Of a DNA stretch of 64,000 bases, positions 10,881 to 26,260 are shown in pieces. The stretch's first letter is position 1, and each line of letters begins with the position of its first letter. The stretch covers positions 148,091,745 through 148,155,744 of the forward strand of contig JAOWCC010001589.1 in assembly GCA_030867875.1 (NCBI GenBank), read 5' to 3'. Below the pieces are notes generated by a model. It searched no databases. It was not told the DNA's origin and saw only the letters and a list, made by a program, of their open reading frames with translations. A program made the position numbers and the translations under genes. Source of the stretch: Actinernus sp. WN-2022. Taxonomy: Eukaryota > Cnidaria > Anthozoa > Actiniaria > Actinernidae.

Positions 10881-10910
10881 TATATTTAATATCTAATATA
10901 GTAGTATAGG
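10881..10910 (+). promoter_or_regulatory. Probable promoter/start motif of the zinc-ribbon gene
   Basis: The 227 bp between the left TIR and the first gene (10684-10910) holds no gene. Its last 30 bases are A/T only with scattered G (TATATTTAATATC... TAGTATAGG) and end directly at the ATG. TATAGG-ATG matches the TATA-plus-purine motif seen before most other genes of the element. Confidence 0.5.
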
Positions 10911-11507: not shown

Positions 11508-11518
11508 TATGGCAATGA

Positions 11519-12016
11519 TCAACTAGTTGCGTACTTCTTGTTGTATCTCTCTCTGAATCTATCAACTAGTGGACATAGGTCACTAACTTGATCGTCCAAC
11601 CAGTTCAACTCTAATGTAAATCTTTCGATGTCGAGTTCTTCTCCACGCAGATATGCCCTTATTTTATTCAAGATCTTCTGATATGATGTGTACGCAAATT
11701 TGCTCATTTCCGTCTTCCTATTGTAGTTTTTCATTTTTAGTAGTCCTTGAAGCAATAGTCCTGATCCCGATATTGTACCGAGAATGATTGGATTTAGTGT
11801 TATAGACCCAATGATTACGCCTGTACTTGTGAGACCAATTGACGATAAGTGTAGAATTGTATTAACCTTCTTGAATCGTTTGTATGCTTGCTTGTGGTAG
11901 AAGCATTTTTTGTGGTAGTGAGAATACAGGTTTTTTAGCATTTCGACATCTGCTTCACTCAAGTCCTTGTCTATATGATTGAAGTTGAATATGTCTACTT
12001 TCAACGTCTTTGCCAT
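11519..12016 (-). CDS. Two-transmembrane-helix protein, function unknown
   Basis: 165-residue protein with a polar, Lys/His/Tyr-rich N-terminal helix (about 20-50), two closely spaced hydrophobic segments (about 52-71 and 75-94, separated by a short SITLNP turn), and a C-terminal helical region with a charged amphipathic end. The N-terminal helix, tight 2TM hairpin and following long helix resemble the SLATT class of 2TM proteins in topology only; no residue-level motif proves this. It is last in a three-gene minus-strand block after the ATPase and the coiled-coil protein, 11 bp downstream of the latter, so is probably co-expressed with them. It may be a virion inner-membrane or membrane-remodelling protein. 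The ATG is preceded by TATAGCTAT. Confidence 0.75.
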   Translation of the reverse strand: MAKTLKVDIFNFNHIDKDLSEADVEMLKNLYSHYHKKCFYHKQAYKRFKKVNTILHLSSIGLTSTGVIIGSITLNPIILGTISGSGLLLQGLLKMKNYNRKTEMSKFAYTSYQKILNKIRAYLRGEELDIERFTLELNWLDDQVSDLCPLVDRFRERYNKKYATS

Positions 12017-12027
12017 ATAGCTATACG

Positions 12028-13188: not shown

Positions 13189-13288
13189 ACGTATACATAT
13201 TAGTTACATAATTCGTTACTCTAAGTTAGCGTAACTTTTTGAAATCGTATGTAAATCACACGAAAACCCTCGAATTCTCATTCTCTAA
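13189..13288 (-). promoter_or_regulatory. Spacer with start motif of the coiled-coil gene
   Basis: 100-bp gap between the ATPase stop and the next minus-strand ATG. Read on the minus strand it ends with TATGTAACTAATATGTATACGT before the ATG in two overlapping parts: a TATGTAAC box, which also occurs upstream of 12016 and 19997, and the TATAC motif. Confidence 0.4.
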
Positions 13289-13975
13289 CTACGTATTATG
13301 CATGTATAAACCGTCGAAGTTCTTTCGATACATCTCGGGAATATGCTTAGAAGTCTTATCCAACACCATGAAATCGAATGGTTCTATCGTAGCTTCTCGA
13401 TATATGTCTTCGAATTGTTTCCGACTGATGTTTTTACAGTTATCATCAGCAATGTGTCTGATGTCCTTGTTATCTAATCCGCCAAATAGAACGAAGCACT
13501 TAGTATTGCGTCGAATGTATTTTGGCACATCGTAATAGCTTTGACACAAGTAAATGCAGTTACAGTTCTTATTTCTAGATAGCGAAAAGTATTCCTTAAC
13601 GTTGTTCATATTTTTATTGTCGATCTTAATATCATCGAATACGATAACCTTATTAGCGTCATCATCTAAATCTTCAACTGGTATGATGTCTTCTGGATTG
13701 CATAATTCGACATTACACGCATCGTCGTCGTCATCTAATTCCTCGTTAATGATATCATGGAATTCTTTTATTAGACTGTACTTATCCTGATGAGGATTTA
13801 GAGTATGTATCTTACATGAATCGTAATTCATCCATTTTAAAAGCATATTGGTAAGCAGATTCGTTTTACCTTGACCCGTACTACCAACTAGCATAAAATG
13901 GCAATCAGGAAGCAAGAAGTGATGTTTTGGTTTCTGACTTATTTTTTCAGTATCGTCAAAGTTGATTATATTCAT
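13289..13975 (-). CDS. FtsK/HerA-type genome-packaging ATPase
   Basis: 228-residue P-loop ATPase that would pump element DNA into the preformed capsid. Walker A is GSTGQGKT at 31-38, in the usual context of a hydrophobic strand (HFMLVG). Walker B is VIVFDD at 110-115 with the two adjacent acidic residues. A YLCQSY segment at 142-147 matches the downstream sensor strand of the A32/HerA packaging ATPases, and R155/R156 are candidates for an arginine finger. An acidic stretch (78-86) is inserted between the Walker motifs. The length is in the range expected for Polinton and virophage packaging ATPases. It starts the minus-strand block and is divergent from the first fibre-like gene, sharing a 27-bp intergenic region. 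No damage is visible. Confidence 0.93.
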   Translation of the reverse strand: MNIINFDDTEKISQKPKHHFLLPDCHFMLVGSTGQGKTNLLTNMLLKWMNYDSCKIHTLNPHQDKYSLIKEFHDIINEELDDDDDACNVELCNPEDIIPVEDLDDDANKVIVFDDIKIDNKNMNNVKEYFSLSRNKNCNCIYLCQSYYDVPKYIRRNTKCFVLFGGLDNKDIRHIADDNCKNISRKQFEDIYREATIEPFDFMVLDKTSKHIPEMYRKNFDGLYMHNT

Positions 13976-14002
13976 CTACTATAATGTACGTATACAATAT
14001 AG
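13976..14002. promoter_or_regulatory. Compact bidirectional promoter between ATPase and fibre gene
   Basis: Only 27 bp separate two divergent ATGs. The segment includes TATAATGTACGTATACAATA, whose centre GTACGTATAC is close to palindromic. Each direction shows a TATA-like element a few bases before its ATG. So short a divergent spacer means the core promoter must lie at, or inside, the start of the genes. Confidence 0.6.
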
Positions 14003-14623
14003 ATGAGTCTTATGAAATTTGGAACGATTCGAACTGGAAGCAGCAATGAGTGCATGCATGAGCAAACACCAGTAAGAATAGTTAGTATTAATGCGAAAGA
14101 GATTTCACTCTTATGGCTTCAACGCGATACAGATTGGATGGATATACCCAATTACGAAATACAGCTAACACCAAAAGGTACGAATATGATGAGACTATCA
14201 TGCCGCCTATACATCTCAAACAACACTGGAGGAGGTAATTTTTGGTTCCGATGGGTCCTATTAACGCCAACACCAGTTCCAGGGCACCATTTACAAACGA
14301 TTATTGGTGTAAGTAATTTACCAGATGCAGCAATTGGCTTGAGAACCAGATGTGCATTTGCATCACAACCGCCAAGAGATCCAGAGACAGTCGTTTGTAT
14401 TTCAGACGTCTCTTTTCATGAGAATTTCGGTAACGGCATCCTACACACGTATAAGCTGCAGTGTAAGATCACTGATACAGGAACGATGGTATTGAATAGA
14501 CTGTATAATGGCGCTAATGCGACATGGAATGGATACATGAAATCATTAATAATGGTTGAGGAAATCACAGGAATGACCAAAAAAACTGCTCAAAATGGGA
14601 TCAACGAATACGCATCAAACTAA
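14003..14623 (+). CDS. Putative virion surface/fibre-like protein 1 (unrecognised)
   Basis: 206-residue protein with no family I can name. It is rich in Thr, Asn, Gly and aromatic residues in alternating beta-type runs (for example MRLSCRLYISN and NFWFRWVLL), and ends with a KSLIMVEEI strand, a type of ending common in trimeric TNF/C1q-like knobs of viral fibres. The first 12 residues align with the next gene's N-terminus: M1, S2, F6, G7, T8, an aliphatic residue at 9 and G12 are shared. That suggests a common peptide docking both proteins on one site, perhaps the penton protein encoded just downstream. It opens the plus-strand virion gene run. The function is inferred from position and composition, not homology. 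Confidence 0.6.
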   Translation: MSLMKFGTIRTGSSNECMHEQTPVRIVSINAKEISLLWLQRDTDWMDIPNYEIQLTPKGTNMMRLSCRLYISNNTGGGNFWFRWVLLTPTPVPGHHLQTIIGVSNLPDAAIGLRTRCAFASQPPRDPETVVCISDVSFHENFGNGILHTYKLQCKITDTGTMVLNRLYNGANATWNGYMKSLIMVEEITGMTKKTAQNGINEYASN

Positions 14624-14644
14624 TGTAATCATATAATATAAGAG
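14624..14644 (+). promoter_or_regulatory. Start motif of the collagen-like fibre gene
   Basis: 21-bp spacer containing ATCATATAATATAAGAG before the ATG. The ATCATATAATAT core is repeated almost exactly before the major capsid gene at 17031-17043. Confidence 0.5.
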
Positions 14645-15904
14645 ATGAGTTACTCAATATTTGGAACGCTTTACAATGGTACGATAGAGCAAAAGGAAGG
14701 TAAGCGCGGACCACCTGGAAGGGATTCAACCGTTCCTGGCCCACGTGGAAGGGACTCAACTGTTCCTGGCCCAGCAGGTAAGGACTCAACTGTTCCTGGA
14801 CCATCTGGAAGGGACTCAACCATTCCTGGCCCACGTGGAAGGGACTCAACCGTTCCTGGCCCACGTGGAAGGGACTCAACCGTTCCTGGGCCTGGTGTTA
14901 TGTATGGTAGTCAAACATTCAATTGTGGTAATTTCGTTATGGATTCTAGTAATTGGGCGTCATCAAGCAGTGTAAGTTCATTCATAATCATAAATGATGC
15001 ATACTCTATGATTAACATCGCTCCAGAACATCAAGGTTTTAGAATCCTAGAGACATTTAAACCAAACTCGACGGAGAAGTTGACTATGACTCTACCAAAA
15101 AATGATAATCCAGCCTTAGGGTTAAAAGGCAACAGTGACTACGCAGTTCGGGTCGAAGCTTATGCAAACGTTGGATCCATAACACTAAACTCTATATCAA
15201 TTGAACAGAATTTAAGTTTCATATCGAACACGATGAAAAATGGAAGGATAGGATCTACAAACACTGCTTTCCAAGAGCTAAGCATAACAACATCTACTAA
15301 TGACACAGGTAAATTTTCATTTACATTGAGTCATAATCAGTCATCCAATCAGCTAATAGTAATCTATGTTGCAATCGTTGCTGGAGCATTAAATGCAAAC
15401 ACCTTTGTGAATCCAGCATCATTCGACGACGTCTCACTTATTATACCAACTCAAATTAAGGATATTGTACCAATTAGACCAACCATCTATGGTAATGTCA
15501 TTAACGAAAGGCTAAGATATCAAACAAGAAGTGCGCTTACAGAAATTCCTAAGTTGACGGTCACATTACCTGGTGGGAACGTGTTATATCGAATACAATG
15601 TTGCTTATATATTAGATCGAGTAGAGACGACACAGATATAGTTTTCTCAAACAGAAAGAATGACACATACGTTAACGTATTCAATATGCGTATAAAAAGA
15701 GGGGCATATGCCGATGTTCCATTGAACAACGTATATTATTTGTTTCAAAGAGATGTGGATACAACATATTATATGATGATACAAACTCAATCTGGAGTCG
15801 TCGTTAACGTCAATTGGAATTCACAACAATCTTACATAACAGCTGAAAAATGGGATGGCCTGAATGTCGTACACGATTCATCCGATAATATAATAATTGG
15901 ATAA
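14645..15904 (+). CDS. Collagen-like fibre protein 2
   Basis: 419-residue protein. After a short N-terminal tail (with FGT at 6-8, shared with the preceding gene), residues 22-81 are six copies of a ten-residue repeat of the form GPxGRDSTVP, followed by GPG. This resembles the collagen-like stalks of phage and viral fibres, but the glycine spacing is 3 then 7, not a strict Gly-X-Y series. The remaining ~335 residues are beta-rich with Asn/Ser/Thr, and look like two beta-sandwich domains (about 95-280 and 285-419), suitable for receptor or glycan binding. The stalk repeats are also 30-bp DNA repeats (14708-14887), prone to copy-number change. The ATG follows a TATA-like motif. It is likely a trimeric spike; the receptor is unknown. 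Confidence 0.75.
   Translation: MSYSIFGTLYNGTIEQKEGKRGPPGRDSTVPGPRGRDSTVPGPAGKDSTVPGPSGRDSTIPGPRGRDSTVPGPRGRDSTVPGPGVMYGSQTFNCGNFVMDSSNWASSSSVSSFIIINDAYSMINIAPEHQGFRILETFKPNSTEKLTMTLPKNDNPALGLKGNSDYAVRVEAYANVGSITLNSISIEQNLSFISNTMKNGRIGSTNTAFQELSITTSTNDTGKFSFTLSHNQSSNQLIVIYVAIVAGALNANTFVNPASFDDVSLIIPTQIKDIVPIRPTIYGNVINERLRYQTRSALTEIPKLTVTLPGGNVLYRIQCCLYIRSSRDDTDIVFSNRKNDTYVNVFNMRIKRGAYADVPLNNVYYLFQRDVDTTYYMMIQTQSGVVVNVNWNSQQSYITAEKWDGLNVVHDSSDNIIIG
14708..14887 (+). repeat. Six 30-bp coding repeats (fibre stalk)
   Basis: Six in-frame 30-bp units of the form GGCCCACGTGGAAGGGACTC plus AACCGTTCCT. Units 2, 5 and 6 encode the same decapeptide; units 1, 3 and 4 differ mainly at the third residue. 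The glycine codons and DSTVP are kept. A likely site of slippage or unequal exchange altering stalk length. Confidence 0.9.
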
Positions 15905-15924
15905 TAATCTAACCAAACTGTATA

Positions 15925-16665
15925 ATGCAAACTACGCTATTCTTCGATAGTAAGAAAGGATTCGGTTCATCTGAAAACTTCACGACAAACTTCAATCCTC
16001 CATTGGAGCTAGACAGTACGAAAAACTATCAAATCTCGTTAATCAATGCATCAATGTGGTACTCTTGGTATAACATAACGAGTGTAAATAACAAGTTCAA
16101 ATACTATAATGGTACAGCTTGGAAGACGATAACATTATCGCCAGGAGCATACAACGTAATTGACATAAACGACACTATGAAGCACCATATGAAGCAAAAT
16201 AGCGATTGGGACGTTGCTAACAGTAAGTACTATGTCGATATTAAACCTAATTACAACACACTGAAGTCTGTGATTGAGATACGAAATGGTTATAAAGTGG
16301 ATTTCACTATTGACGAAAGTTTTAGGACGATACTTGGTTTCGAATCTAAGATAGTTCAAGGCAACGGCTTTCACGATAGCGATAAGATTGTGCAAATCAC
16401 AGAGGTCGATACTATTCAAGTACACTGCGATCTAGTAACAGATTCTTACATAAATGGCAGTACAAGTTCGGTCATCTACTCATTCGTTCCATCGGTTCCT
16501 CCAGGTTACTTGATCAACATCCATCCTAACCAACGATTCGATATGAACATATCGAAAAGATCGATTAACAGTATATCGTTCTCGCTTAGAGATCAAAGTG
16601 GTAATTCGATAAGAATGAATAATGAGAGAGTTACGTATTACATCCATCTTAGTGAGATTGTGTAA
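15925..16665 (+). CDS. Minor capsid protein (penton, single jelly roll)
   Basis: 246-residue protein with the recognisable layout of the Polinton minor capsid protein. An N-terminal beta strand (TTLFFDS) is followed by YQISLINASMWYSWYNI at 35-51, then a PGAY segment, an ILGF-type turn near 135-138, HDSD near 150-153, a long beta region ending YSFVP, then PPGYLINIHP, and a final ISFSLRDQSG strand pair. The family forms pentameric vertices of the icosahedral capsid. It lies between the fibre-like genes and the major capsid gene, the usual neighbourhood, and would be the docking partner of the fibres. The ATG at 15925 directly follows CTGTATA. The reading frame is intact. Confidence 0.9.
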   Translation: MQTTLFFDSKKGFGSSENFTTNFNPPLELDSTKNYQISLINASMWYSWYNITSVNNKFKYYNGTAWKTITLSPGAYNVIDINDTMKHHMKQNSDWDVANSKYYVDIKPNYNTLKSVIEIRNGYKVDFTIDESFRTILGFESKIVQGNGFHDSDKIVQITEVDTIQVHCDLVTDSYINGSTSSVIYSFVPSVPPGYLINIHPNQRFDMNISKRSINSISFSLRDQSGNSIRMNNERVTYYIHLSEIV

Positions 16666-16670
16666 CCAAT

Positions 16671-17018
16671 ATGTATATGCTATTAACGAGAGAACGATAT
16701 ACCAAAAGGAAAGTCATTGGTGGAAACCTCATTGGGAACGTATTCGACAAAGCAAAGAGTACGCTTTCAACAGCTAGCAAGATAATAACGAGGCCCATTA
16801 ATGCTTTAAAAAATGGATTGCTAAAACCCGTTATTACTAAGGCTCTTCCATATGTTAAACAGAAAGCCATCAATGTTGGCACTAAAGCGATCCTTCAAAA
16901 AGTAAAGCAGGGCGTTAGAGACGTTTCGTCAAATCCAGAGGTTCGGAAAGTCTTGAATGACCGGTCGAGAGCTATCTTATCGAATCTTATTGCTGGAAGA
17001 GGCATGAAACGATTGTAG
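16671..17018 (+). CDS. Small basic virion protein, unrecognised
   Basis: 115-residue, strongly basic protein (many Lys/Arg, few acidic residues) with no recognised domain. It is helical in character from about 20 to 105 and has glycine motifs at both ends: VIGGN at 15-19 and IAGRG at 107-111. The latter fits the (M/I/L)xGx-G cleavage consensus known for adenovirus protease, so it may be a core or cement protein trimmed by the element's own protease. It starts 5 bp after the minor capsid stop and is followed by the major capsid gene. The first ATG (16671) has no TATA motif before it, but the second (16677) does, so a start two codons later is possible. Confidence 0.7.
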   Translation: MYMLLTRERYTKRKVIGGNLIGNVFDKAKSTLSTASKIITRPINALKNGLLKPVITKALPYVKQKAINVGTKAILQKVKQGVRDVSSNPEVRKVLNDRSRAILSNLIAGRGMKRL

Positions 17019-17043
17019 TGACTTTTGTATAATCATATAATAT
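17019..17043 (+). promoter_or_regulatory. Start motif of the major capsid gene
   Basis: 25-bp spacer ending GTATAATCATATAATAT before the ATG. It shares ATCATATAATAT with the spacer before the collagen-like gene, suggesting co-regulation of structural genes. Confidence 0.5.
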
Positions 17044-18462
17044 ATGACTGAAGTAATTAGCCAATATTTTCAATTCGATGAATCGAACATTATCGATAAC
17101 TCAACTACGAAATTCGAATATATCGAATACCTTCCAAGAGACTCTAATAACATGGATAAAGATGGCCAAAGGATCATCGAGACTCGAGATGAAGACGTAT
17201 ACCTGCTCCCACATAAGGCTATGTTGGAGGTGCGTGGTAAGCTGCAAACAGCTGCTAATGCTGATTATAATGCAACAGATATTGTATCGCTTGTGAATAA
17301 TGCGTGGAGTCTATTTTCAAGTGCTCAATATCAGATTAACAACCAAATAGTAGAAAGTGTGAATGACTACCTACCAGAAGCAAGCACAATTCTAAACACA
17401 GTCATGTTTTCTGATGACTATAGCCGTAGTACTGCTAGTAATATGCTTTGGTTTAGAGATACATCAACGGGTACACCAACTTTAAAGTACATAACTGCAA
17501 TTGCTGCAGTCGATGATGCTGCTAATGCAGCTGCCGTTCGAACAGGAACGCAAGCCTTAGTTGTTGCATACACACAAGACCAAACAGCTAATCTAGGTTT
17601 CACTGCTCGACAGGCTATCACGACAGGAGCTAAACAAGTATCCCTGCTTCTACCACTATCGCAAGTTTTCGGATTCTGTAAGGATGTAGATACTGTGTTT
17701 CGGAGTGTCAAACATACCCTTATCCTAAACAGAGCAACAGCAAACCAGTATATCATGAAAGATAATGCTGTAGGCGTTGGTAAATTTAAGATTACTCACC
17801 TATCACTATGGATGCCTAAAGTCGTTCCTTCACTAGAAATTCAATCATACATTGATGCCAAACTAGTAAGTGGTTACATAAAGGACCTATACTTCGAGCA
17901 GGTACGTGTATACAGAACGATGTTCCAAGCCGTTGAAACGAACCCAACATGGAGAATTACAACACAGCCAGGTAGCGAACTTCCAAGACATGTCTTCATT
18001 GCATTACAGTCTAGTGATCGTCATCCAACAGCTAATGCACAGAATGTCAATAATATGATCTTCGATAATGGGAACCTAACAAGAATCAGTATTCGAATCA
18101 ATAGCGTACAACATCCAGAAAGAGAAGTAGAATGTAACTTCACTCCAGCTAATAGGAACTATAATAGATCGTACATGATGTTCATGGATGCCGTTAACAA
18201 ATACCAAGATACCGATACTGGTAGTCAGCTTAGTGTTGAGGATTGGGCATCATTGTATCCAATACATCATTTTGACGTTAGTAAGCATTCAGAGCAGCTG
18301 AAAACAAGCATGGCTGATATTGAAGTCCGATTTACCCTAGGTGGGAACTTCAGAAACATAGCTAACAATGCTGATATACCTTATTATGTTTATGCCGTAA
18401 TCCTATCCGATAGGCACTTACAACTACAAGGCTTGTCTGGTAGAATGAATGTAATCGTGTAA
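17044..18462 (+). CDS. Major capsid protein (double jelly roll)
   Basis: 472-residue protein with the features of Polinton major capsid proteins, the trimeric hexon-like building block. The N-terminal jelly roll includes strand YLLPHKAMLEVRGKL (about 53-67) and the conserved VNNAWSLFSSAQYQINNQIV segment split over 84-103. The C-terminal part has SLYPIHHFDVS at about 404-414, then a DIEVRFTLGG strand and YAVILSDRHLQL near the end. The YPI-x-x-FDVS and VILSDR segments are the parts by which I recognise the family. It follows the minor capsid and small basic genes and precedes the two glycine-rich virion proteins. An Ala-rich region (about 155-190) may be a surface loop. There are no internal stops. 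A TATAATAT motif lies directly before the ATG. Confidence 0.93.
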   Translation: MTEVISQYFQFDESNIIDNSTTKFEYIEYLPRDSNNMDKDGQRIIETRDEDVYLLPHKAMLEVRGKLQTAANADYNATDIVSLVNNAWSLFSSAQYQINNQIVESVNDYLPEASTILNTVMFSDDYSRSTASNMLWFRDTSTGTPTLKYITAIAAVDDAANAAAVRTGTQALVVAYTQDQTANLGFTARQAITTGAKQVSLLLPLSQVFGFCKDVDTVFRSVKHTLILNRATANQYIMKDNAVGVGKFKITHLSLWMPKVVPSLEIQSYIDAKLVSGYIKDLYFEQVRVYRTMFQAVETNPTWRITTQPGSELPRHVFIALQSSDRHPTANAQNVNNMIFDNGNLTRISIRINSVQHPEREVECNFTPANRNYNRSYMMFMDAVNKYQDTDTGSQLSVEDWASLYPIHHFDVSKHSEQLKTSMADIEVRFTLGGNFRNIANNADIPYYVYAVILSDRHLQLQGLSGRMNVIV

Positions 18463-18491
18463 ATTTTATCTAATTATACTACATATACGAA
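18463..18491 (+). promoter_or_regulatory. Start motif of glycine-rich virion protein A
   Basis: The spacer contains ATTATACTACATATACGAA and then the ATG. TATACGAA-ATG is the same ending as before the PLA2 gene (19988-19996). Confidence 0.5.
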
Positions 18492-18971
18492 ATGAGCTAT
18501 ATTAGAACAGGATTGAGTCTAAGCGAATCTCAAAAAGAATCAATTAAGAATGCTTACATCAATAAGAAAACAGTTAGCTTGAGATTGAACAACAATCAAC
18601 TAACAGGAAGCGACTTTCTAGGACTGACTAAAGCGCAACGTAAGAAGGTGGTTGAAGCTAAAAGAGGAATGTCTGGAGTCCAACTAAAACTTAGTAAGAC
18701 GCAAGTCTCAAAACAAGTCTCAAAACAAGGCGGATTTTTAGGTGGATTGGGTAATTTAGTGAAAATGATTGCTCCTATGTTCTTGAAGAAAATCCTACCA
18801 GCTCTTGGAATGGATGCTGCAACTGGAGCAATATCTGGTTCTGTCTCTAAGGCTGTACAAGGAAAAGGCATTAAGAAAAAGAGAGGTAGACCAAAAAAGA
18901 AGGGCAAAGGACTCATACTTGGACCGAATTCACCTTTTAAGGGCATACCATTACTTGGAGCAATTCTCTAA
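18492..18971 (+). CDS. Glycine-rich virion protein A (Polinton family, AT-hook-like tail)
   Basis: 159-residue protein. The N-terminal half (8-75) carries LSESQKESI, LTKAQRKKV and LKLSKTQ segments, matched in order by the next gene, so the two are paralogues. A hydrophobic, Gly-rich stretch follows (GGFLGGLGNLVKMIAPMFL, 80-98). Then come a basic KKKRGRPKKKGKG segment (128-140) with an AT-hook-like RGRP core, and a C-terminal LILGPNSPFKGIPLLGAIL tail that I recognise as recurrent in Polintons. It is probably a DNA-associated internal virion protein with a membrane-active segment. A 12-bp tandem duplication near 18708-18731 gives VSKQ twice (72-79). LGGLG at 83-87 fits an adenain-type cleavage site. 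The product role is inferred. Confidence 0.75.
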   Translation: MSYIRTGLSLSESQKESIKNAYINKKTVSLRLNNNQLTGSDFLGLTKAQRKKVVEAKRGMSGVQLKLSKTQVSKQVSKQGGFLGGLGNLVKMIAPMFLKKILPALGMDAATGAISGSVSKAVQGKGIKKKRGRPKKKGKGLILGPNSPFKGIPLLGAIL

Positions 18972-19009
18972 TCGTATTCAAATTATTGTCTAACGATATC
19001 ATATATAGA
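18972..19009 (+). promoter_or_regulatory. Start motif deciding the ATG of protein B
   Basis: The spacer ends TAACGATATCATATATAGA and then the ATG at 19010. An in-frame ATG at 18986 lies upstream of and within this motif and is therefore less likely to be used. Confidence 0.55.
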
Positions 19010-19528
19010 ATGCCAACGAATTATGTAGAAACATCATTAAAGCTATCTGAGGCACAGAAACGTAAGATAGCTTCAGCTGTTCAAAACAAGACATCAACTA
19101 CCATTAGACTATCGTCTAGCGACTATCATGGTAATGATAAAATCAAATTGACTAATCAGCAAATCAATAAAATCAAAAAGGCCAAGTCGAAAAACGTTGG
19201 AGTAGATATTAAACTCAGTAAGACACAGTTAAGTAAACAAGGCGGATTCATTGGAGCGCTATTAGGCGGCTTGGCAGCAAGCCTGCTTCCCAATCTCTTA
19301 GGTGGTATTTTTGGTGGCAAGGGAATCGCTCTACCAGGTACTAATCCAAAGTCGAGTGGAAGAGGATTCAATCTTTCAGCTCTGAGGCCACCTCCATATA
19401 TTGGATCTTGGAATTCTGACAATACGATCGGTTATGGAGCAAAAAAAAAGATCTCAAGAAAGAAAACAGCCAAAGGCCTCGTGCTTCCAGGGACAATCCT
19501 AAAGCGTCCATATTACGGAACGCGCTAA
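19010..19528 (+). CDS. Glycine-rich virion protein B with PPxY motif (possible pVI analogue)
   Basis: 172-residue paralogue of the preceding protein: LSEAQKRKI (12-20), LTNQQINKI (47-55) and IKLSKTQLSKQGG (67-79) align. It continues into an amphipathic Gly/Leu/Ala segment (about 79-105) with LLGGL and LLGGI, which fit the (M/I/L)xGG-x protease consensus, then a PPPY motif at 127-130, a basic region, and a KGLVLP tail. A membrane-active helix, a PPxY late-domain motif and adjacency to the protease together recall adenovirus protein VI; this analogy is inference, not sequence homology. The last 109 nt overlap the open -1 frame of the protease, with a slippery A AAA AAG at codons 146-147 (19444-19450). 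The start at 19010 is chosen because the TATAGA motif precedes it; 18986 would add eight residues. Confidence 0.75.
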   Translation: MPTNYVETSLKLSEAQKRKIASAVQNKTSTTIRLSSSDYHGNDKIKLTNQQINKIKKAKSKNVGVDIKLSKTQLSKQGGFIGALLGGLAASLLPNLLGGIFGGKGIALPGTNPKSSGRGFNLSALRPPPYIGSWNSDNTIGYGAKKKISRKKTAKGLVLPGTILKRPYYGTR

Positions 19529-19560
19529 GACCACTGAGCAACATCGATATCGATAGCATT
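19420..19560 (+). other. Open -1 frame upstream of the protease ATG, partly overlapping protein B
   Basis: From 19420 the protease frame has no stop and no ATG until 19561. Its last dozen codons encode the conserved LSNIDID segment of the protease domain, so this stretch is probably translated. The first 109 nt overlap the end of protein B, whose own frame still encodes a plausible basic tail (KGLVLP), so both frames look used. Confidence 0.6.
19444..19450 (+). other. Candidate -1 ribosomal frameshift site into the protease
   Basis: Zero-frame codons read GCA AAA AAA AAG ATC, giving the heptamer A AAA AAG in X XXY YYZ phase. A -1 slip enters the protease frame, which is open from 19420 (after TGA at 19417-19419) through the protease stop. 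The A9 run could also cause transcriptional slippage. A 6-bp stem with one bulge is visible at 19504-19523, farther downstream than usual; no strong closer structure was seen by eye. Confidence 0.6.
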
Positions 19561-19980
19561 ATGAAAAAACTAAAGATCGCCAACTACATAGGTGCTTACA
19601 GTAAAGATATGCTACCTGATAGGATCAATAATGACGGGTGTGTAGTAATCAATATTCAAGACTATTTTAAAGGCGATGGTACTCACTGGGTTGCCGTATA
19701 TAACAATCATGATAATAACTACATCGAACACTTCGATTCATTCGGCCTATTGCCAGCAGAAGAGGTAATAGAGCTTATGGAAACAAGCAACAAACAAATA
19801 GAGTACAATAGCTCGCAGATTCAAGATATGGATAGCATTATGTGTGGTTATTATTGCATATTCTACATTCTAGAACGCTCAAAGGGTAGAAAACCTATCG
19901 ACATCTTGTTAGACTTTCAGTTCAAACCATCTATGTTCAATGAATTGCTTATACAGCACTTCGCTTACGATATTATGTAA
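19561..19980 (+). CDS. Ulp1/adenain-type cysteine protease (maturation protease)
   Basis: 139 residues counted from the first ATG. The catalytic triad is visible: H42 in GTHWVAV, D59 in HFDSFG and C95 in CGYYC, with Q88 as the oxyanion-hole residue, in the order of the Ulp1/adenain C5-C48 families. It would process virion proteins at glycine motifs. The domain appears to begin before this ATG: the same frame reads LRPLSNIDIDSI immediately upstream (19525-19560), a segment I recognise as the usual start of Polinton proteases. The frame is open from 19420 but has no ATG there, and no TATA-type start motif precedes 19561. Expression as a -1 frameshift fusion to protein B is therefore favoured; internal initiation at 19561 giving a shortened protease is the alternative. 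Confidence 0.88.
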   Translation: MKKLKIANYIGAYSKDMLPDRINNDGCVVINIQDYFKGDGTHWVAVYNNHDNNYIEHFDSFGLLPAEEVIELMETSNKQIEYNSSQIQDMDSIMCGYYCIFYILERSKGRKPIDILLDFQFKPSMFNELLIQHFAYDIM

Positions 19981-19996
19981 CGATATTGTATACGAA
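19981..19996 (+). promoter_or_regulatory. Start motif of the PLA2-domain gene
   Basis: CGATATTGTATACGAA immediately precedes the ATG at 19997, matching the motif before 18492. It supports 19997 over an in-frame ATG at 19940 that lies inside the protease gene. Confidence 0.55.
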
Positions 19997-20857
19997 ATGA
20001 CTAAGATATATTGTCTAAGACAAAAGAAACAAACTGAGACGAAAGATGAGCATATCGTAAAGACTCAAAATGGAAGGACTCGTCTGGTAGGCGTCTGCGT
20101 AGAATGCGGAAGTCAAAAGTCGAAATTCGTGAAATCTACACAAGGCGGTAGTATGTTGCCAGGAGCACTAGCTATTTCAGCTGGAATACCACTTCTTGCT
20201 GGAGCCGCCGCATTATCAATGGTTCCAGGTAGTGGAAAGCTATTTTCGACACTTGCTAAGGGTGCTACACAGGCAATAGGTAAAAAGATAAGAAGCAAAG
20301 CTGCCGATTTCATTGAAAGAGAAGGTCAAACATTATTGAATCTAACATCTAAGAAGATTCGTGGTGGGCAGATACAACATCCAATGAGTATGTATACTAA
20401 CGTAACAGATCCAGCATCCGAATTCTATGATGATCATATGAAAACTATTAAGAAAGGAGGTAAGTTAGACATTCATAAAGCAATATTAAAGGTTGCACCA
20501 AAAAAGGGATTCACGCTACCAGGTCATCATTATACAGGACCTGGGAATCCCTTAGAAAATCAATTGACTTATGATAAGACAGGTCGAATATTAGAGATTT
20601 ACGATAAGCCAACTGGCAAAACTGATGCTGTGAGTATGCAACACGATGTCGATTATTCTATCTGTGATGATGACGTCAAATGCAAAAATGAAGCTGATCG
20701 AAAAATGGTCAAATCATTAGACGAAATTCCATGGAAGGATCGCCAATGGGGTCATGCCTTAGCAAGGAATGCTATCGCGACTAAAGCAAAGCTTGGAATG
20801 GGTGCTAAGAAGCCAAAAAACGGAAAAAGCCGTCGAGTGAAGAAAACTGGCAAGTAA
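19997..20857 (+). CDS. Virion protein with parvovirus-type phospholipase A2 domain
   Basis: 286 residues from the ATG at 19997. The N-terminal ~45 residues resemble a small zinc-knuckle module (C6, C34, C37 visible) with its second cysteine missing. Residues about 53-77 are hydrophobic and Gly/Ala-rich (MLPGALAISAGIPLLAG). IRGGQ at 121-125 fits an adenain-type (M/I/L)xGG-x cleavage site just before the C-terminal domain. That domain carries the calcium-loop YTGPGN at 179-184 and the catalytic HDVDY at 216-220, the two signatures of the PLA2 domain of parvovirus VP1, which opens endosomal membranes during entry. The protein is thus probably an internal capsid protein used at entry. Its basic tail overlaps the open -1 frame of the integrase, and A AAA AAC at 20815-20821 is a slippery site in phase. 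Confidence 0.85.
   Translation: MTKIYCLRQKKQTETKDEHIVKTQNGRTRLVGVCVECGSQKSKFVKSTQGGSMLPGALAISAGIPLLAGAAALSMVPGSGKLFSTLAKGATQAIGKKIRSKAADFIEREGQTLLNLTSKKIRGGQIQHPMSMYTNVTDPASEFYDDHMKTIKKGGKLDIHKAILKVAPKKGFTLPGHHYTGPGNPLENQLTYDKTGRILEIYDKPTGKTDAVSMQHDVDYSICDDDVKCKNEADRKMVKSLDEIPWKDRQWGHALARNAIATKAKLGMGAKKPKNGKSRRVKKTGK
20815..20821 (+). other. Candidate -1 ribosomal frameshift site into the integrase
   Basis: Zero-frame codons read CCA AAA AAC GGA, giving A AAA AAC in X XXY YYZ phase, a classic -1 slippery heptamer. A -1 slip places the next codon at 20821 in the integrase frame, which is open only from 20809 (TAA at 20806-20808) and overlaps the PLA2 gene to its stop at 20855-20857. The site therefore falls inside a 49-nt window where it must be. 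A small 4-bp hairpin (ACGG/CCGT, 20820-20833) overlaps it; no strong stimulatory structure was recognised. Confidence 0.65.
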
Positions 20858-21780
20858 AACTAGCAGATGAATTGCATAGACCAATAAGACGTAAATTTAC
20901 TCGGCGGCGCGTTATAGCTAATCACATTGATGAAATATGGTGTTCTGATCTCGTTGAGATGCAACAGTTTAGCAAATGGAATAAGGGCTATCGATACCTT
21001 CTCATGGTTCTAGACGTCTTTAGCAAGTTTGGTTGGATCTTACCATTGAAAGATAAGAAAGGCGAAACAGTTATGAAAGCTTTTCAAACGATATTCAAGG
21101 AAGGTAGAGAGCCAAAATATCTTTGGGTTGATAAGGGTAAGGAGTACTACAATAAGAATGTGAAAGAGCTATTGGACAAACATAGTATACAAATGTATTC
21201 AACTGAGAATGAAGAAAAGTCTTCTGTTTGCGAGAGATGGAATAGAACGATCAAAACTAAAATGTGGAAGCAATTCACTGTCCAAGGCAATACGCAGTAC
21301 TTAGATATGCTGCCTAGAATATTGAAACAGTACAATAGTACAAAACATTCAAGCATCAAAATGACTCCTATCGAAGCAAGCAAAAAGAAGAATGAAGGAA
21401 CCGTTTACTTTAATCTATATGGTGATATGGAGTCATTACAATCGAAACCGAAATTTAAGGTTAGCGATAAGGTCCGTATATCGAAATACAAGCGTAATGT
21501 ATTCGACAAAGGGTATACTCCGAATTGGACTGAAGAAGCGTTTACAATCGATAAAATCCAGTATACGAATCCCATTACATACAAACTGAAGGATCTGAAT
21601 GGTGAAGAAATACAAGGTTCTTTCTACGAACAGGAGATATCAAAAGCAACTCAAGAAATTTTCAGAATCGACAAAGTCATTAGAAGGAACTACAAGAAAA
21701 AACAAGCTCTAGTATCGTGGAAAGGGTATAGCGATGAATTCAATAGTTGGATACCATTTAAGAATCTAGATTCGATATAG
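20821..21780 (+). CDS. Retroviral-type (RVE) integrase with C-terminal chromodomain-like segment, probably -1 frameshift product
   Basis: Polinton integrase. The DDE core has Asp codons at 20947 (CSDLV) and 21130 (WVDKGKEYYN) and Glu at 21232 (CERWNRT), a 33-residue D-E spacing that I recall as usual for Polintons. The C-terminal 45 residues (FRIDKVIRRN, then VSWKGY, then NSWIP) form a chromodomain-like segment likely to guide insertion to chromatin. The enzyme would insert element ends and create the 6-bp duplication. The frame is open from 20809, and the segment 20851-20901 (QVKLADELHRPIRRKF) matches the usual integrase N-terminus. There is no ATG before 20959, which lies after the first catalytic Asp, so an ATG start would kill the enzyme. 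A TTG at 20872 is the only near-start codon. I give the start as the predicted -1 frameshift point. Confidence 0.88.
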   Translation, partial: RKKPSSEENWQVKLADELHRPIRRKFTRRRVIANHIDEIWCSDLVEMQQFSKWNKGYRYLLMVLDVFSKFGWILPLKDKKGETVMKAFQTIFKEGREPKYLWVDKGKEYYNKNVKELLDKHSIQMYSTENEEKSSVCERWNRTIKTKMWKQFTVQGNTQYLDMLPRILKQYNSTKHSSIKMTPIEASKKKNEGTVYFNLYGDMESLQSKPKFKVSDKVRISKYKRNVFDKGYTPNWTEEAFTIDKIQYTNPITYKLKDLNGEEIQGSFYEQEISKATQEIFRIDKVIRRNYKKKQALVSWKGYSDEFNSWIPFKNLDSI

Positions 21781-21862
21781 ATGCATGCTACATTAATCAA
21801 TTAACCACGTTTGAACGCACATATTAAATTGACAATAATTTATATATATAGTTGTTATATAC
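21781..21862 (+). promoter_or_regulatory. Intergenic promoter region before the zinc-finger gene
   Basis: 82-bp gap, the longest between plus-strand genes. It contains a TATATATATA run at 21841-21850 and GTTATATAC directly before the ATG, so a separate transcription start for the zinc-finger/pPolB (replication) genes is plausible. Confidence 0.55.
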
Positions 21863-22087
21863 ATGAACGATAACAATACCATAGAACCAATCAAAAGACT
21901 AAGAGGTCGACCACGAATGTATGACGACATTGAAAGGAAGCATCGAAAAACTAAGTACATGCTAAGTAAATCTTGGTTCTGCTTAACGTGCGAAATCTAT
22001 AAAGACTACACGATGGCTGGTAAATCAAGTCATATTAAGACCAATAAGCACAAACGCAGCCAAACGCACCTAGGTTTAAAAACATAA
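21863..22087 (+). CDS. Small DNA-binding protein: AT-hook plus C2H2 zinc finger
   Basis: 74-residue basic protein. An AT-hook-like RGRPR core lies at 14-18, and one zinc finger is visible as C40-x2-C43-x13-H57-x5-H63, followed by a basic tail. Both parts bind DNA in known families, A/T-rich minor groove for the hook, so this could be a regulator or a replication/packaging accessory. It sits 26 bp before pPolB and after a stronger TATA-type spacer, suggesting early co-expression with the polymerase. Small zinc-finger proteins of this kind are frequent in Polinton-like elements, but I cannot name a characterised orthologue. Confidence 0.75.
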   Translation: MNDNNTIEPIKRLRGRPRMYDDIERKHRKTKYMLSKSWFCLTCEIYKDYTMAGKSSHIKTNKHKRSQTHLGLKT

Positions 22088-22113
22088 TTTGTTATCTATA
22101 GCTAATATATAGG
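22088..22113 (+). promoter_or_regulatory. Start motif of the DNA polymerase gene
   Basis: 26-bp spacer with TTATCTATAGCTAATATATAGG to the ATG in two overlapping TATA-type parts; TATAGG-ATG matches the motif before the zinc-ribbon gene at 10911. Confidence 0.5.
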
Positions 22114-25100
22114 ATGATGAACGAATCGAATCTCAATAAATTGTCTAAATCGAAACTTATCGAATTGATCTTGAAACAAAATACTATAAGACGTCCAAAA
22201 ATTGCTGAAAACATCCTCTTACCACCAGCTCAATTCAGAGACAACCGACCAGTTCCTACTCCACGAAGAAGCGTTAAGGACATGATCGAACGCTACGAGG
22301 AAAACATCATCCTACCACCAACTCGATTCAGAGATGACTACAAACCAATCCCAGCTCAGAGGACTATCAAAAGACCTGTTCCTGCTCCAAGAACTAAGAT
22401 CATACAACTAGATAGAGCTATGAAAGGTTCAATCAGTTCATTTGAAGTCGCCATTAAGAACAATAAAGACCCACTAGTACAACTAACCACTACGAGAAAA
22501 GGCATTCAGACTCAATTCGAAAAGCTATTGATTGAGACCAAAGGTTACAAATTTGTTGAAACAATAAAGGTTACATTCGAAAAACAGCTAGAGGAAGACA
22601 AGACAACAATCAAAACAGCTTATTTCAACAGCACTGCATCTACGATAATAAATGAAAACGATATCATGGGAGGACTACAATTGGCCAAGCAACAAATACT
22701 AAATAAAATAGCGCAATGGATCTCAGAGGGTTCAGGATGGACTATAGAGACAATCGACAAACATTATATCAACATAGTCAAGTATGAGCCTATGAAAGGA
22801 AGCAGCTACATACAACTACCATCAGAGCTTAGAAATTCAGCTAAAGGCTTAATCAACATGAAAAACATCGACAACGAATGCTTCAGATGGTGCCACGTAA
22901 GGCACTTGAATCCACAGGAAAAATATCCTCAGAGAATCAAGAAGAGCGACAGAAAATCTGCGAAGGACCTAGACTATTCTAACATCGAATTTCCAGTAGC
23001 TACCAAACAGTACAATAAAATCGAAAAGCAAAACAACATTAGTATCAGTGTCTTTGGATATGAAGAAAGGAAGCCATATCCCATATTCGTATCAAAAGAA
23101 AAGTACGATGACCATATGGATCTGTTATTGATCACAGAGAATACAAACAAGCACTACGTTCTAATCAAGGACTTCAACAAGTTTATGTACAACCAAACGA
23201 AACACAAGGAGAGAAAGCACTTTTGTAAGTATTGCCTACAATGCTTCAAATCTGAAAGAGTGTTGGTTGCTCACAAAGAGAATTGCATCCAAGTAAATGG
23301 TACGCAAGCAATTAAGATGCCAACTAAGGAAAACAACATATTGAAATTCAAAAACCATAACAAACAGTTAGCAGTACCATTCGCGATCTATGCCGACTTT
23401 GAAGCTATAACTGAGAAGATCGATGGTTGCAAACCTAATAATGACAAGTCGTACACTGAAGCCTACCAAAAGCATACAGACTGTGGTTATGGCTACAAAG
23501 TAGTATGTTGTTACGACGACAAATATAGCAAACCAGTGCAGATCTATAGAGGTGAGAAATCCGTATACAAATTCATGGAAAGAATGCTCGAAGAAGTCAA
23601 ATGGTGCCAAAAGACGATCAAGAAAAACTTCAACAAAGACATGGTAATGACTAAGGCAAATCGAATAGATTTCAAAACCGCTGATGAATGCCATATATGC
23701 AATGAAGAGTACACTAAGACCGACATAAGAGTTAGAGACCACTGCCACATAACAGGAAAATACAGAGGGTCAGCTCATCAAGATTGCAATCTCAACTTCA
23801 AAATAAAAGCTGAAGAAATCAAGATACCAGTTATCTTCCATAACCTACGTGGATACGACAGCCATCTTATCATGCAAGAAATAGGTAAAGTCGTCAAAAA
23901 CAACACATACATCGATAAAAATGGTAATGAGAAACAACACCAAATCAACGTGATTCCAAATAATATGGAAAAATACATGGCATTCATGCTAGGCAACAAT
24001 TTAGTCTTCCTCGATAGCTTCCAATTCATGAGCCAATCACTTAGCAATCTAGCGAACAACCTCCCAGAAGATCGCTTCAAATACACGTCAGAAGAATTTC
24101 ATGATGAAAAACTCGAATTAATGAAACGAAAAGGGGTTTATCCTTACGACTATATGGATAGCTTCGAGAAATTCGATAAGACACAACTACCAACGAAAGA
24201 AGAATTCCATAGCATCTTGAATGACGAACACGTTACGGATGACCAATACCGACATGCCCAAAACGTATGGAATACTTTCGAACTGGAAACGATGGGTGAG
24301 TACCACGATCTATACCTCAAAACCGACATCTCGTTGTTAGCAGACGTATTCGAAAACTTTAGAAGAACGTGTATGCAATACTACAAACTAGACCCATGCC
24401 ACTACTTCACTAGCCCTGGATTGAGTTGGGACGCGATGCTTAAGATGACTAAGGTCGAATTAGAGCTCATGACTGACGTCGACATGTTCCAGTTCATCGA
24501 AAAAGGCATGCGAGGTGGTATCTCATACATAGCTAACAGATATGGAAAAGCAAACAACCAACACATGAAGAACTACGATGAGAACGCGCCCTCTAAGCAC
24601 ATCATGTATCTCGATGCCAATAATCTCTACGGGTGGGCCATGTCTCATTATTTAGCATATGGTGGCTTTCGATGGTTGACAGATAAGAGAATTAACAATA
24701 CCAACTTAGCCAAATACAACGAAAACAGTAAGAAGGGACTAATCTTAGAAGTCGATCTGGAGTACCCAGAAGAACTACATGACAACCACAACGACTATCC
24801 GTTAGCTCCTGAAAAAGTCAAGGTAACTGAAAACATGCTATCGAATTATTGCATAGAGATTCAGAAGAAATACAACATTTCGATTGGACAAGTCCACAAG
24901 TTGATTCCAAATCTGAACGACAAAACCAAGTACGTAATCCATTATAGAAATCTTCAATTATACCTCGATCTCGGCTTGAAAATAAAGAAAGTACATAGAG
25001 TGCTAGAATTTAATCAATCACCCTGGTTGAAGCAATACATCGATTTCAACACTCAGAAGAGAACCAATGCTAAAAATTCATTCGAGAAAGACTTCTTCAA

Positions 25101-25878
25101 GCTCATGAACAATTCTGTATTCGGTAAGACCATGGAGAACCTCAGAAAGCGAGTAGATATTAGACTAGTAACCAATGAAAAGAAACTACTACAAATGGCA
25201 TCTAAACCGACTTACGTGAGTAGTAAGATATTCAACGAAAATTTAGTAGCAGTCCACAAAATCAAAGAAACATTAACCCTAAACCGACCGGCATACATAG
25301 GTATGTGCATCCTCGACATTTCTAAGACACTAATGTATGATTTCCACTACAACTACATTAAAAAGAAGTATAGCCAAGCTAAGTTGTTGTTCACAGACAC
25401 CGACAGCCTATTGTATGAAATCGAAACTGAAAACGCTTATCAAGATTTTTGGTACGACAAAGATAAATTCGACAATAGCGACTATCCAATAGACAATCAA
25501 TTCCACGATACAACGAATAAGAAAGTAATTGGTAAATTCAAGGACGAGGCTGCTGGAATTCCTATCACAGAGTTCGTAGGGCTTCGATCAAAAATGTACA
25601 GCTACATGAAAGACAACAATATAGGTGCTAAGACGGCTAAAGGCATCAAGAAGAACGTCGTCAAGAAGAACGTCAAACATGAAAACTATAAAGACGTGCT
25701 AATGAACAACAAACAGATGTCACACACTATGAAGACCATTAGAAGTCAAAACCACCAATTGGGAAGCTACGAAATTAACAAGATCTCACTATCATGCTTC
25801 GACGACAAACGGTATCTATTGGAAGACGGGATTACGAGCTACGCTTATGGACACCATAAAATACGAAAAGCGAAGTAG
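22114..25878 (+). CDS. polB: Protein-primed family B DNA polymerase (pPolB)
   Basis: 1254-residue polymerase that would replicate the element from its TIRs using a terminal protein as primer. Residues 6-22 look SAP-like. Residues 32-93 hold two ENI(L/I)LPPxxFRD repeats with PVPxPR-type proline motifs. A C2HC finger is at C371/C374/H387/C391. The 3'-5' exonuclease shows D428/E430 (YADFEA), N577/D582 (FHNLRGYD) and Y734/D738 (YLKTD). Polymerase motif A is D834 with LYG at 838-840, motif B is K996-NNS-VFG, and motif C is DTDS at 1095-1098. A Cys/His module between Exo I and II (C526, C529, DHCH 542-545, H555, C558) resembles the endonuclease VII-like fold. All catalytic residues are intact. The gene ends 37 bp before the right TIR. 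Confidence 0.96.
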   Translation: MMNESNLNKLSKSKLIELILKQNTIRRPKIAENILLPPAQFRDNRPVPTPRRSVKDMIERYEENIILPPTRFRDDYKPIPAQRTIKRPVPAPRTKIIQLDRAMKGSISSFEVAIKNNKDPLVQLTTTRKGIQTQFEKLLIETKGYKFVETIKVTFEKQLEEDKTTIKTAYFNSTASTIINENDIMGGLQLAKQQILNKIAQWISEGSGWTIETIDKHYINIVKYEPMKGSSYIQLPSELRNSAKGLINMKNIDNECFRWCHVRHLNPQEKYPQRIKKSDRKSAKDLDYSNIEFPVATKQYNKIEKQNNISISVFGYEERKPYPIFVSKEKYDDHMDLLLITENTNKHYVLIKDFNKFMYNQTKHKERKHFCKYCLQCFKSERVLVAHKENCIQVNGTQAIKMPTKENNILKFKNHNKQLAVPFAIYADFEAITEKIDGCKPNNDKSYTEAYQKHTDCGYGYKVVCCYDDKYSKPVQIYRGEKSVYKFMERMLEEVKWCQKTIKKNFNKDMVMTKANRIDFKTADECHICNEEYTKTDIRVRDHCHITGKYRGSAHQDCNLNFKIKAEEIKIPVIFHNLRGYDSHLIMQEIGKVVKNNTYIDKNGNEKQHQINVIPNNMEKYMAFMLGNNLVFLDSFQFMSQSLSNLANNLPEDRFKYTSEEFHDEKLELMKRKGVYPYDYMDSFEKFDKTQLPTKEEFHSILNDEHVTDDQYRHAQNVWNTFELETMGEYHDLYLKTDISLLADVFENFRRTCMQYYKLDPCHYFTSPGLSWDAMLKMTKVELELMTDVDMFQFIEKGMRGGISYIANRYGKANNQHMKNYDENAPSKHIMYLDANNLYGWAMSHYLAYGGFRWLTDKRINNTNLAKYNENSKKGLILEVDLEYPEELHDNHNDYPLAPEKVKVTENMLSNYCIEIQKKYNISIGQVHKLIPNLNDKTKYVIHYRNLQLYLDLGLKIKKVHRVLEFNQSPWLKQYIDFNTQKRTNAKNSFEKDFFKLMNNSVFGKTMENLRKRVDIRLVTNEKKLLQMASKPTYVSSKIFNENLVAVHKIKETLTLNRPAYIGMCILDISKTLMYDFHYNYIKKKYSQAKLLFTDTDSLLYEIETENAYQDFWYDKDKFDNSDYPIDNQFHDTTNKKVIGKFKDEAAGIPITEFVGLRSKMYSYMKDNNIGAKTAKGIKKNVVKKNVKHENYKDVLMNNKQMSHTMKTIRSQNHQLGSYEINKISLSCFDDKRYLLEDGITSYAYGHHKIRKAK

Positions 25879-25915
25879 TAAGCGGTATAGTAGAGACCAA
25901 CTATAAAATAGAATG

Positions 25916-26260
25916 AAGAGAAGAATGAAGAGAAGAATTCGATATCCAAAGATTGAAACCAGTTATGGAGATTTCCAAGAATTCGACATCCAAAGATTGA
26001 AACCGGCTATGGAGATTTCCAAGAATTTGACATCCAAAGATTGAACTGGTTAAACCGGTTATGAAGAACTTCAAGAATTCGACCACGCCCTAAATTGACC
26101 ACGCCCTAAATAATTCCAAGGATAGTAGTACAGTAGTACAGTAGTATCGAGGGTGGGGAGAGACCTTCTTCGAGGTTGAGACCTTCTTTGAGGTCGACAA
26201 CGGATTATTTCGATCTCGAAGAGATTGAAATGGTCCGGTGCCCCCACCCCCTATACTACT
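25916..26260 (-). repeat. Right terminal inverted repeat (345 bp)
   Basis: Reverse complement matches the left TIR across its length, except for one base near the outer end and a missing ~18-bp repeat unit (plus 3 additional bases). It contains the same 16-bp and 44-bp subterminal repeats and the same 19-bp foldback. It ends CCCCTATACTACT at 26260. A short open frame here (25901-26086) is the mirror of one in the left TIR and is not considered a gene. Confidence 0.97.

Follow-up and report, generated by a model that had tools for sequence, protein, structure and literature searches.

The protease and the integrase of a Polinton found in a 64,000-nt stretch of DNA from Actinernus sp. WN-2022 (hereafter the window) are most likely synthesised largely or exclusively as −1 extensions of the product of the gene directly before each, as judged from sequence comparison. 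The integrase, whose upstream partner is a PLA2-domain protein, very probably arises through programmed −1 ribosomal frameshifting. The junctions have short overlaps, frame offsets and slippery heptamers, and the integrase junction additionally has an RNA stem with compensatory change and no integrase start codon.

The element and its two overlapping gene pairs

The element measures 15.9 kb, within the 15–20 kb given for Polintons/Mavericks (PMC4028283), and is bounded by terminal inverted repeats (TIRs) of about 350 nt. Its gene set is also that of a Polinton/Maverick (rve integrase, adenain-like protease, packaging ATPase, and DJR capsid protein), with Pfam matches to PF00665, DJR-like_dom, and Pox_A32, the last just over the cut-off. 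A 1254-aa ORF (22114–25878) is, by inspection, a putative protein-primed family B DNA polymerase, its only Pfam match being Endonuclease_7, just below the cut-off. The features on which the argument depends are as follows:

10324–10683, no strand: left TIR (inverted repeats of 253 nt at 100% and 101 nt at 97%)
25916–26260, no strand: right TIR, partner of the left by inverted-repeat match
18492–18971, + strand: protein A, a paralogue of protein B (44% identity over 82 aa) without an overlapping enzyme gene
19010–19528, + strand: protein B, small, with a basic tail and a TATA-like motif directly upstream; zero-frame partner of the protease (frame 2)
19420–19980, + strand: adenain-like cysteine protease, open frame 1 (−1 to protein B), first ATG at 19561
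19441–19449, + strand: slippery run A9 with in-phase A AAA AAA (from 19441) and A AAA AAG (from 19444)
19997–20857, + strand: PLA2-domain protein (DUF5679 and Phospholip_A2_4), zero-frame partner of the integrase (frame 2)
20809–21780, + strand: rve integrase with chromodomain, frame 1 (−1 to PLA2), no in-frame ATG before 20959
20815–20821, + strand: slippery heptamer A AAA AAC, in phase with PLA2
20822–20828, + strand: 7-nt spacer
20829–20841, + strand: 5′ arm of a predicted 13-bp stem (folding, duplex energy, covariation)
20896–20908, + strand: 3′ arm of that stem, within the integrase frame (same evidence)

The protease was recognised by family profiles, which match 6lj9 (S273R) and 1avp (adenain); Pfam alone gave a sub-threshold match to Peptidase_C48. 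An AlphaFold model of the protease from its single sequence was set aside (mean pLDDT 33.6). Protein B has no Pfam match; together with PLA2, it would be a virion protein. The gene of protein A has no run of seven or more As, the only such runs on the + strand of 10900–25900 being those at 14579 and 19441.

The sequence-only reading had described two gene pairs of one design, and that description is accurate: both enzymes lie at −1, the overlaps are short (109 nt for B/protease, 49 nt for PLA2/integrase), and each contains an in-phase A-rich heptamer. Stops at 19417–19419 and 20806–20808 close the protease and integrase frames, respectively, upstream. Its further statement that neither enzyme has an ATG or TATA start needs amending for the protease. 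A TATA motif, present in the 30 nt ahead of 13 of the element's 14 ATG-started genes (the exception being that at 16671), is absent within 30 nt before the first protease-frame ATG and before the integrase, and the first integrase-frame ATG (20959) falls behind the presumed catalytic Asp, but the protease frame does contain an ATG, at 19561, behind the PLSNIDI motif. The repetition had also been taken to make chance less likely. An in-phase heptamer is expected by chance with a probability of 0.10 at the protease site and 0.046 at the integrase site (from 14 occurrences in 4776 codon-pair positions), or about 0.005 jointly, which makes the window alone only suggestive; because these figures ignore lysine-rich tails, it is conservation among copies that carries the claim.

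Conservation of frames, heptamer, and stem

We read 69 loci including the window, 51 with the main integrase and 18 belonging to a second superfamily (superfamily X), in which the integrase is strongly diverged. The first 40 loci were chosen for variety from 130 listed, and the DNA comparison covers one genome, except for one locus. The survey of related elements proposed with the sequence-only reading, covering frame offset and heptamer, gave the offsets that this reading anticipated: within this genome, the integrase is at −1 in 40 of the 41 loci read, and the protease is at −1 with an in-phase A-heptamer in all 40 loci that have a partner ORF, some of which encode proteases only about 40% identical. 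The −1 layout also holds in lineages with about 40% identity in the protease and about 37–40% in PLA2. Ahead of the integrase, the X XXY YYZ heptamer A AAA AAC is conserved in phase between lineages (48 of 51 loci), its first A coming from a codon that varies (CCA, GTA, TCA, or AAA). PMC5009743 counts A_AAA_AAC among the −1 sites on which mammalian ribosomes shift most readily; its list lacks A_AAA_AAG, which is described there for Escherichia coli. Runs of A7–A10 precede the protease in most loci read.

The RNA stem behind the integrase heptamer, missed when the sequence alone was read, supports ribosomal −1 frameshifting at this site. Its predicted start is 7 nt past the heptamer in all 28 distinct junctions folded, within the usual spacer of 5–9 nt given in PMC7618472. 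In the set used for pairing and covariation (20 of the 28 junctions, eight near-duplicates having been dropped), 97.7% of 260 cells are paired, compared with 30–46% in slid controls. Three stem pairs have changed on both sides in diverged lineages, one group (L070–L072, L074, and L075) contributing 10 of the 11 cells with both sides changed. Shuffles were not exceeded by one of the five pair-level covariation measures or by one at the level of pair types (113/500 each). Folding z-scores were −3.3 to −5.0 in five of the seven rows tested and weak in L073 (−0.4) and L076 (−1.2); in the window, z was −2.3 over 119 nt and about 0 over 79 nt, a length that leaves out the 3′ arm. The duplex energy was better than that of 200/200 shuffles in each of the three loci tested. 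A search of 18400–22200 against Rfam returned no match up to E = 1.

At the protease site, the conserved in-phase heptamer is the signal found. Stem z-scores there ranged from −1.1 to +1.7 (seven loci, three lengths), and duplexes formed with arms as distant as 400 nt were no better than shuffles, except weakly in L070 (shuffles as good: 7/200 at 150 nt, 23/200 at 400 nt); no RNA structure was thus found 5–9 nt downstream. Besides ribosomal slippage, polymerase slippage or separate initiation may operate at this site.

In the mechanism that we propose, the stem, 7 nt further on, would hold a ribosome that is decoding A AAA AAC, and both tRNAs would slip back one base. A minority of ribosomes would then produce a PLA2–integrase fusion, and the rest would stop at 20855–20857 and release PLA2. 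The protease would be made as a B–protease extension at the A-run, via ribosomal or polymerase slippage. Both junctions have a Gag-Pol-type layout; we infer slippage and its efficiency, the virion role of protein B and PLA2, and packaging, with the fusions probably delivering both enzymes to the particle in a fixed, low proportion.

Superfamily X and possible other routes to the enzymes

Superfamily X shows part of this plan. The protease site has an A7 run directly adjoined by a −1 stop (TAA) in 15 of the 18 loci, and the integrase overlaps PLA2 at −1 at A7–A8 runs in 11 of the 18, whereas most sampled stand-alone integrases of this type have their own ATG. In two loci the two are in frame, and in five the integrase is in the third frame, a share of broken frames that is probably overestimated because odd ORF lengths were one reason for choosing these loci. 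A PLA2 ORF of 232 or 233 aa, as in the −1 copies L051 and L065, occurs in 77 of the 92 best listed matches (a hand count by ORF length). Most superfamily X sites have no canonical X XXY YYZ heptamer, the A7 protease site included, and a stem search over distances of up to 400 nt found nothing beyond chance.

A rival reading is that the polymerase rather than the ribosome slips on the A-runs, so that some mRNAs gain one A and the frames are fused. The A7–A9 runs at most protease sites, the A7–A8 runs at the superfamily X integrase site, run lengths that differ among superfamily X copies, and the lack of a stem at the protease and superfamily X sites all fit polymerase slippage. At the main-family integrase site, however, there are only six As followed by C, and polymerase slippage would not need a canonical heptamer correctly spaced from a covarying stem; as a general explanation, we consider it unlikely.

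Protease and integrase might instead be separate genes, initiated at an internal ATG, at a non-ATG codon, or by termination–reinitiation near the overlap. An in-frame ATG lies near the protease domain in 11 of 40 loci and, in the window, at 19561, and an ATG precedes the Asp motif in 9 of the 18 superfamily X integrases, including 4 of the 11 at −1. Relatives, too, include ATG-started enzymes: Met stands just before PLS/TN in 14 of 35 related proteases from elsewhere, stand-alone integrases of the superfamily X type have an ATG at the domain start in seven of the eight sampled, and the one relative found in IMG/VR scans (L049, a Polinton-like virus) has a protease ORF whose initial ATG lies directly ahead of the domain; a GTDB scan for relatives found none. 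Against this stand the 29 of 40 protease loci without a near-domain ATG, the 48 of 50 main-family integrases whose frame has none from the upstream stop up to the presumed catalytic Asp, the 14 of 16 superfamily X protease frames without one before the catalytic His, and the −1 stops that abut or precede many slip sites. Separate genes would, moreover, leave stem and heptamer unexplained, and we regard them as quite improbable.

Decay by indels, or long-read homopolymer errors, in once-fused genes was rejected as very improbable: the copies are numerous and some have frame-changing indels (L014, L052, L056–L059, L060, L061, and L067), but diverged families share the same offsets, the run at the A6C site is short, and the stem covaries, so that in the main family both stem and heptamer count against decay or error. 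In the second protease family and superfamily X, moreover, protein B ends, in its zero frame, much like protein A, and most loci keep the −1 frame open across that tail. Splicing seems the least credible route, since the database gene models that join PLA2 and integrase do so at differing junctions, which look like modelling artefacts, and the conserved features are a slippery site and a stem; single-chain PLA2–integrase proteins in databases, first read as natural fusions, were set aside for the same difference in junctions.

Relation to known systems

The −1 frameshifting favoured here resembles that of retroviral gag-pro and gag-pol in its zero-frame structural protein, −1 protease or integrase, short overlap, shifty heptamer and, at one site, downstream RNA structure. 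MMTV and HTLV use the same A AAA AAC. Unlike retroviruses, the Polinton is a DNA element in which no reverse transcriptase was seen, its two junctions are separate with one enzyme each, and it has a long-loop stem rather than an MMTV-type pseudoknot.

The sequence-only reading knew of no such description for Polintons, but frameshifting has already been suggested for other gene pairs in adintoviruses, a related group of elements. A 2024 preprint (PMC11071296) guesses at frameshifting for the adintovirus penton and hexon–adenain, likewise with a −1 slippery site and a capsid–protease fusion; it concerns other gene pairs on the basis of KnotInFrame, and the relevant part of its text does not name PLA2–integrase or B–protease. 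Among eukaryotic DNA viruses, herpesviruses also frameshift, in KSHV/EBV LANA1 and EBNA1 and in drug-resistant HSV TK (PMC5009743), although the cases described there lie within one gene or in mutants and involve no structural–enzyme fusion plan. Polintons with stand-alone integrase and protease share the gene set (adenain-like protease, rve integrase, DJR capsid protein), but in them the two enzymes often start at their own ATG.

Polintons are considered virus-like. We tentatively suggest, as a possibility that we hold to be somewhat short of probable, that a lineage of eukaryotic dsDNA virus-like transposons joins its protease and integrase to virion proteins through −1 frameshifting of the retroviral kind at two junctions, that the integrase is thereby placed in the particle, and that the plan outlived a swap to a strongly diverged integrase. 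Frameshifting would account for the truncated integrases and odd PLA2–integrase joins in database models of these elements. The covariation-backed signal offers a specific, testable answer on Polinton enzyme dosage and integrase packaging, and it ties a lineage of DNA elements to the Gag-Pol strategy.

The element and its satellite setting

The window holds one Polinton of ~15.9 kb with TIRs of ~350 nt, surrounded by a satellite array of 180/350-bp units (219-10151 and 26293-64000) in a host genome of 1.39 Gb. An identical integrase protein occurs in 14 search rows; because 13 of these cluster on contig C635 of the same genome (140.2-140.8 and 147.6-148.1 Mb; the other is on contig C813), they suggest that Polinton copies were amplified together with the satellite. 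The relevant genes are as follows:

18492-18971, protein A, a paralogue of protein B
19010-19528, protein B, a paralogue of protein A
frame open from 19420, adenain-like protease (profile of its family)
19997-20857, PLA2-domain protein with DUF5679 (Pfam)
frame open from 20809, rve integrase with chromodomain (Pfam)
Polinton gene, DJR capsid protein (Pfam)
Polinton gene, Pox_A32-type ATPase (Pfam)

Neither protein A nor protein B was matched in a Pfam search. A GG motif is found in protein A (KQGGF), protein B (KQGGF), and PLA2 (TQGGS), and twice in protein B of locus L051 (QTGGF, QQGGF), a member of superfamily X (described below); judging from sequence, these motifs may be maturation sites of the protease.

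Two -1 overlaps and their conservation

The sequence-only reading had described two successive overlaps, protein B/protease and PLA2/integrase, with the enzyme at -1 and an in-phase A-rich heptamer. This layout is correct in the window and is kept across loci of one genome, from which all DNA evidence is drawn. The protease frame is at -1 relative to protein B and the integrase frame at -1 relative to PLA2, and both heptamers (within A9 at 19441-19449; A AAA AAC at 20815-20821) are in phase. TATA lies at most 30 nt upstream of 13 of the 14 ATG-started genes of the Polinton and, as had been claimed, is absent at that distance before the protease ATG and the integrase. The claim that both enzymes lack an ATG start applies to the integrase, whose first ATG (20959) is downstream of the W-x-x-D Asp, presumably the first catalytic residue; it applies less fully to the protease, whose first ATG (19561) is downstream of the PLSN motif where the domain begins in relatives, and which, if initiated there, would keep its catalytic residues.

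Of the 4776 codon-pair positions in the Polinton, 14 hold an in-phase heptamer, and the chance of at least one is 0.10 in the protein B/protease overlap and 0.046 in the PLA2/integrase overlap, figures that rise once lysine-rich tails are allowed for. Taken alone, the window is no more than suggestive.

The proposed survey of offsets and heptamers in relatives was run within this genome and bears out the design. The main family (elements with the window-type integrase) is represented by 51 loci: the window, 40 loci taken from 130 integrase rows, and 10 loci added by searching with PLA2 and with a further integrase query (L066, L069, and L070-L077). Among the first 41, window included, 40 have the integrase at -1, L014 being at +1 owing to an indel; L044 has a stop in the -1 frame downstream of the heptamer. 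All 40 loci with a partner ORF (L027 has none) have the protease at -1 and an in-phase A-heptamer, a set that includes proteases ~40% identical to that of the window; an ATG lies near the domain in the -1 frame in 11 of these loci and in none of the other 29. In-phase A AAA AAC precedes the integrase in 48 of the 51 loci (exceptions: AAAAAAT in L027, AAGAAAC in L074, no heptamer in L014), its first A being supplied by varying codons (CCA, GTA, TCA, AAA). In L070, L071, L072, and L074, PLA2 is just 37-40% identical to that of the window and the integrase 81-87%. One locus, L002 (G000:C635:140361075-140361980), has a 622-aa integrase ORF, PLA2 and integrase perhaps being joined in one frame via a small indel.

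A predicted stem and the proposed slippage

Folding of the window predicts a 13-bp stem 7 nt downstream of the integrase heptamer (20829-20841 pairing with 20896-20908), with the zero-frame stop in its 54-nt loop. A predicted stem starts at the same distance in 28/28 distinct junctions folded, although shorter or mismatched in L033, L034, L048, L069, L073, and L076. In L070-L072, L074, and L075, arm letters are replaced on both sides with 13 or 14 pairs retained, and the encoded amino acids change too; therefore, protein conservation does not account for the pairing. With near-duplicates omitted (L023, L027, L032, L037, L039, L044, L046, and L047), 20 of the 28 junctions give 97.7% of 260 cells paired, versus 30-46% in slid controls, and both-sided change at three stem pairs (11 cells). 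Cells paired, doubly changed cells, and covariation score lie above all 500 shuffles; this is not so for the counts of doubly changed pairs and further pair types (113/500 each). Independent covariation events are few, because 10 of the 11 doubly changed cells come from the L070 group. Over 90 nt, the folding z-score is -3.3 (L009), -4.0 (L011), -3.9 (L070), -5.0 (L077), and -3.8 (L033), weaker in L073 (-0.4) and L076 (-1.2), and -2.3 over 119 nt of the window. In L070 (1811-1930), a loop CCCAU could pair with AUGGG downstream of the stem, a possible pseudoknot absent, by eye, from the window.

The PLA2/integrase overlap thus carries conserved sequence features of a putative -1 frameshift signal, and the conserved heptamer and covarying stem make the frameshift claimed there very probably right. 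A_AAA_AAC is among the most shifty sites on mammalian ribosomes and A_AAA_AAG is described for E. coli (searched text of PMC5009743); the usual spacer is 5-9 nt (searched text of PMC7618472). Protein B/protease has the same plan, with conservation limited to the run; the layout claimed there stands, and the frames may be joined either by ribosomes slipping with no strong structure to help or by slippage of the polymerase.

Among the matches listed in a literature search, PMC11071296 was the sole paper found on Polinton frameshifting: its searched passages suggest, on the basis of KnotInFrame, a possible -1 slippery site in some adintovirus penton ORFs and mention a similar relation for hexon-adenain fusions. 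In the passages searched, frameshifts appear just as decay, error, or search setting in PMC10120064, PMC8097293, and PMC12721341, nothing on the subject was found in PMC4028283 and PMC12567637, and PMC5009743 reports herpesvirus frameshifting without a match to ‘polinton’.

Lineages with and without the -1 design

Superfamily X, reached by searching the genome with the Pfam PLA2 model, is represented by 18 loci with PLA2 ~45% identical to that of the window (tblastn; 57% of aligned columns), protease ~35% identical, and an integrase of the classical Polinton type, which has an N-terminal domain; the window integrase as query gave no match to these elements at E 1e-3. At protein B/protease, A7 with an abutting -1 stop TAA and offset -1 occurs in 15/18 loci (in L060 the two share one frame, and the run is missing from L050 and L059). 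Relative to PLA2, the integrase is offset by -1 in 11/18, in frame in two (L056, L057), and in the third frame in five (L052, L058, L059, L061, L067). Its runs are altered while the offset is kept: T5A8 in L065 and T6A7 in L054, versus T3A7 elsewhere among L050-L068. These integrase sites are non-canonical as heptamers, except in L053, and the X loci tested showed no stem. No ATG precedes the catalytic His in the protease frame in 14 of the 16 loci with an identified motif, or the integrase Asp motif in 9/18 loci (7/11 among those at -1).

Eight classical integrases sampled as controls from other families of the genome stand alone: in 8/8 the open frame starts 6-81 nt before the match, with no overlapping ORF >31 aa in another frame. 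Seven have an ATG at the domain start (L080 has none in frame), and in six of these TATA is, by inspection, just upstream. Among 35 related database proteases, a Met stands a little upstream of PLS/TN in 14, three are of another form, and 18 start deeper in the domain, which may or may not reflect overlaps. Database models of the window-type integrase (P0002-P0121) are often truncated at an internal Met, begin in the -1 frame of PLA2, or fuse PLA2 and integrase at varying junctions (P0042 is from Oculina patagonica).

The stand-alone integrases and Met-started proteases argue that the -1 design is confined to certain lineages. In these, fusion of the protease to the small basic protein B and of the integrase to the PLA2 protein would carry both enzymes into the particle; by inspection, the N-terminal domain found in classical integrases is absent from that of the main family, which fits its existence as a fusion.
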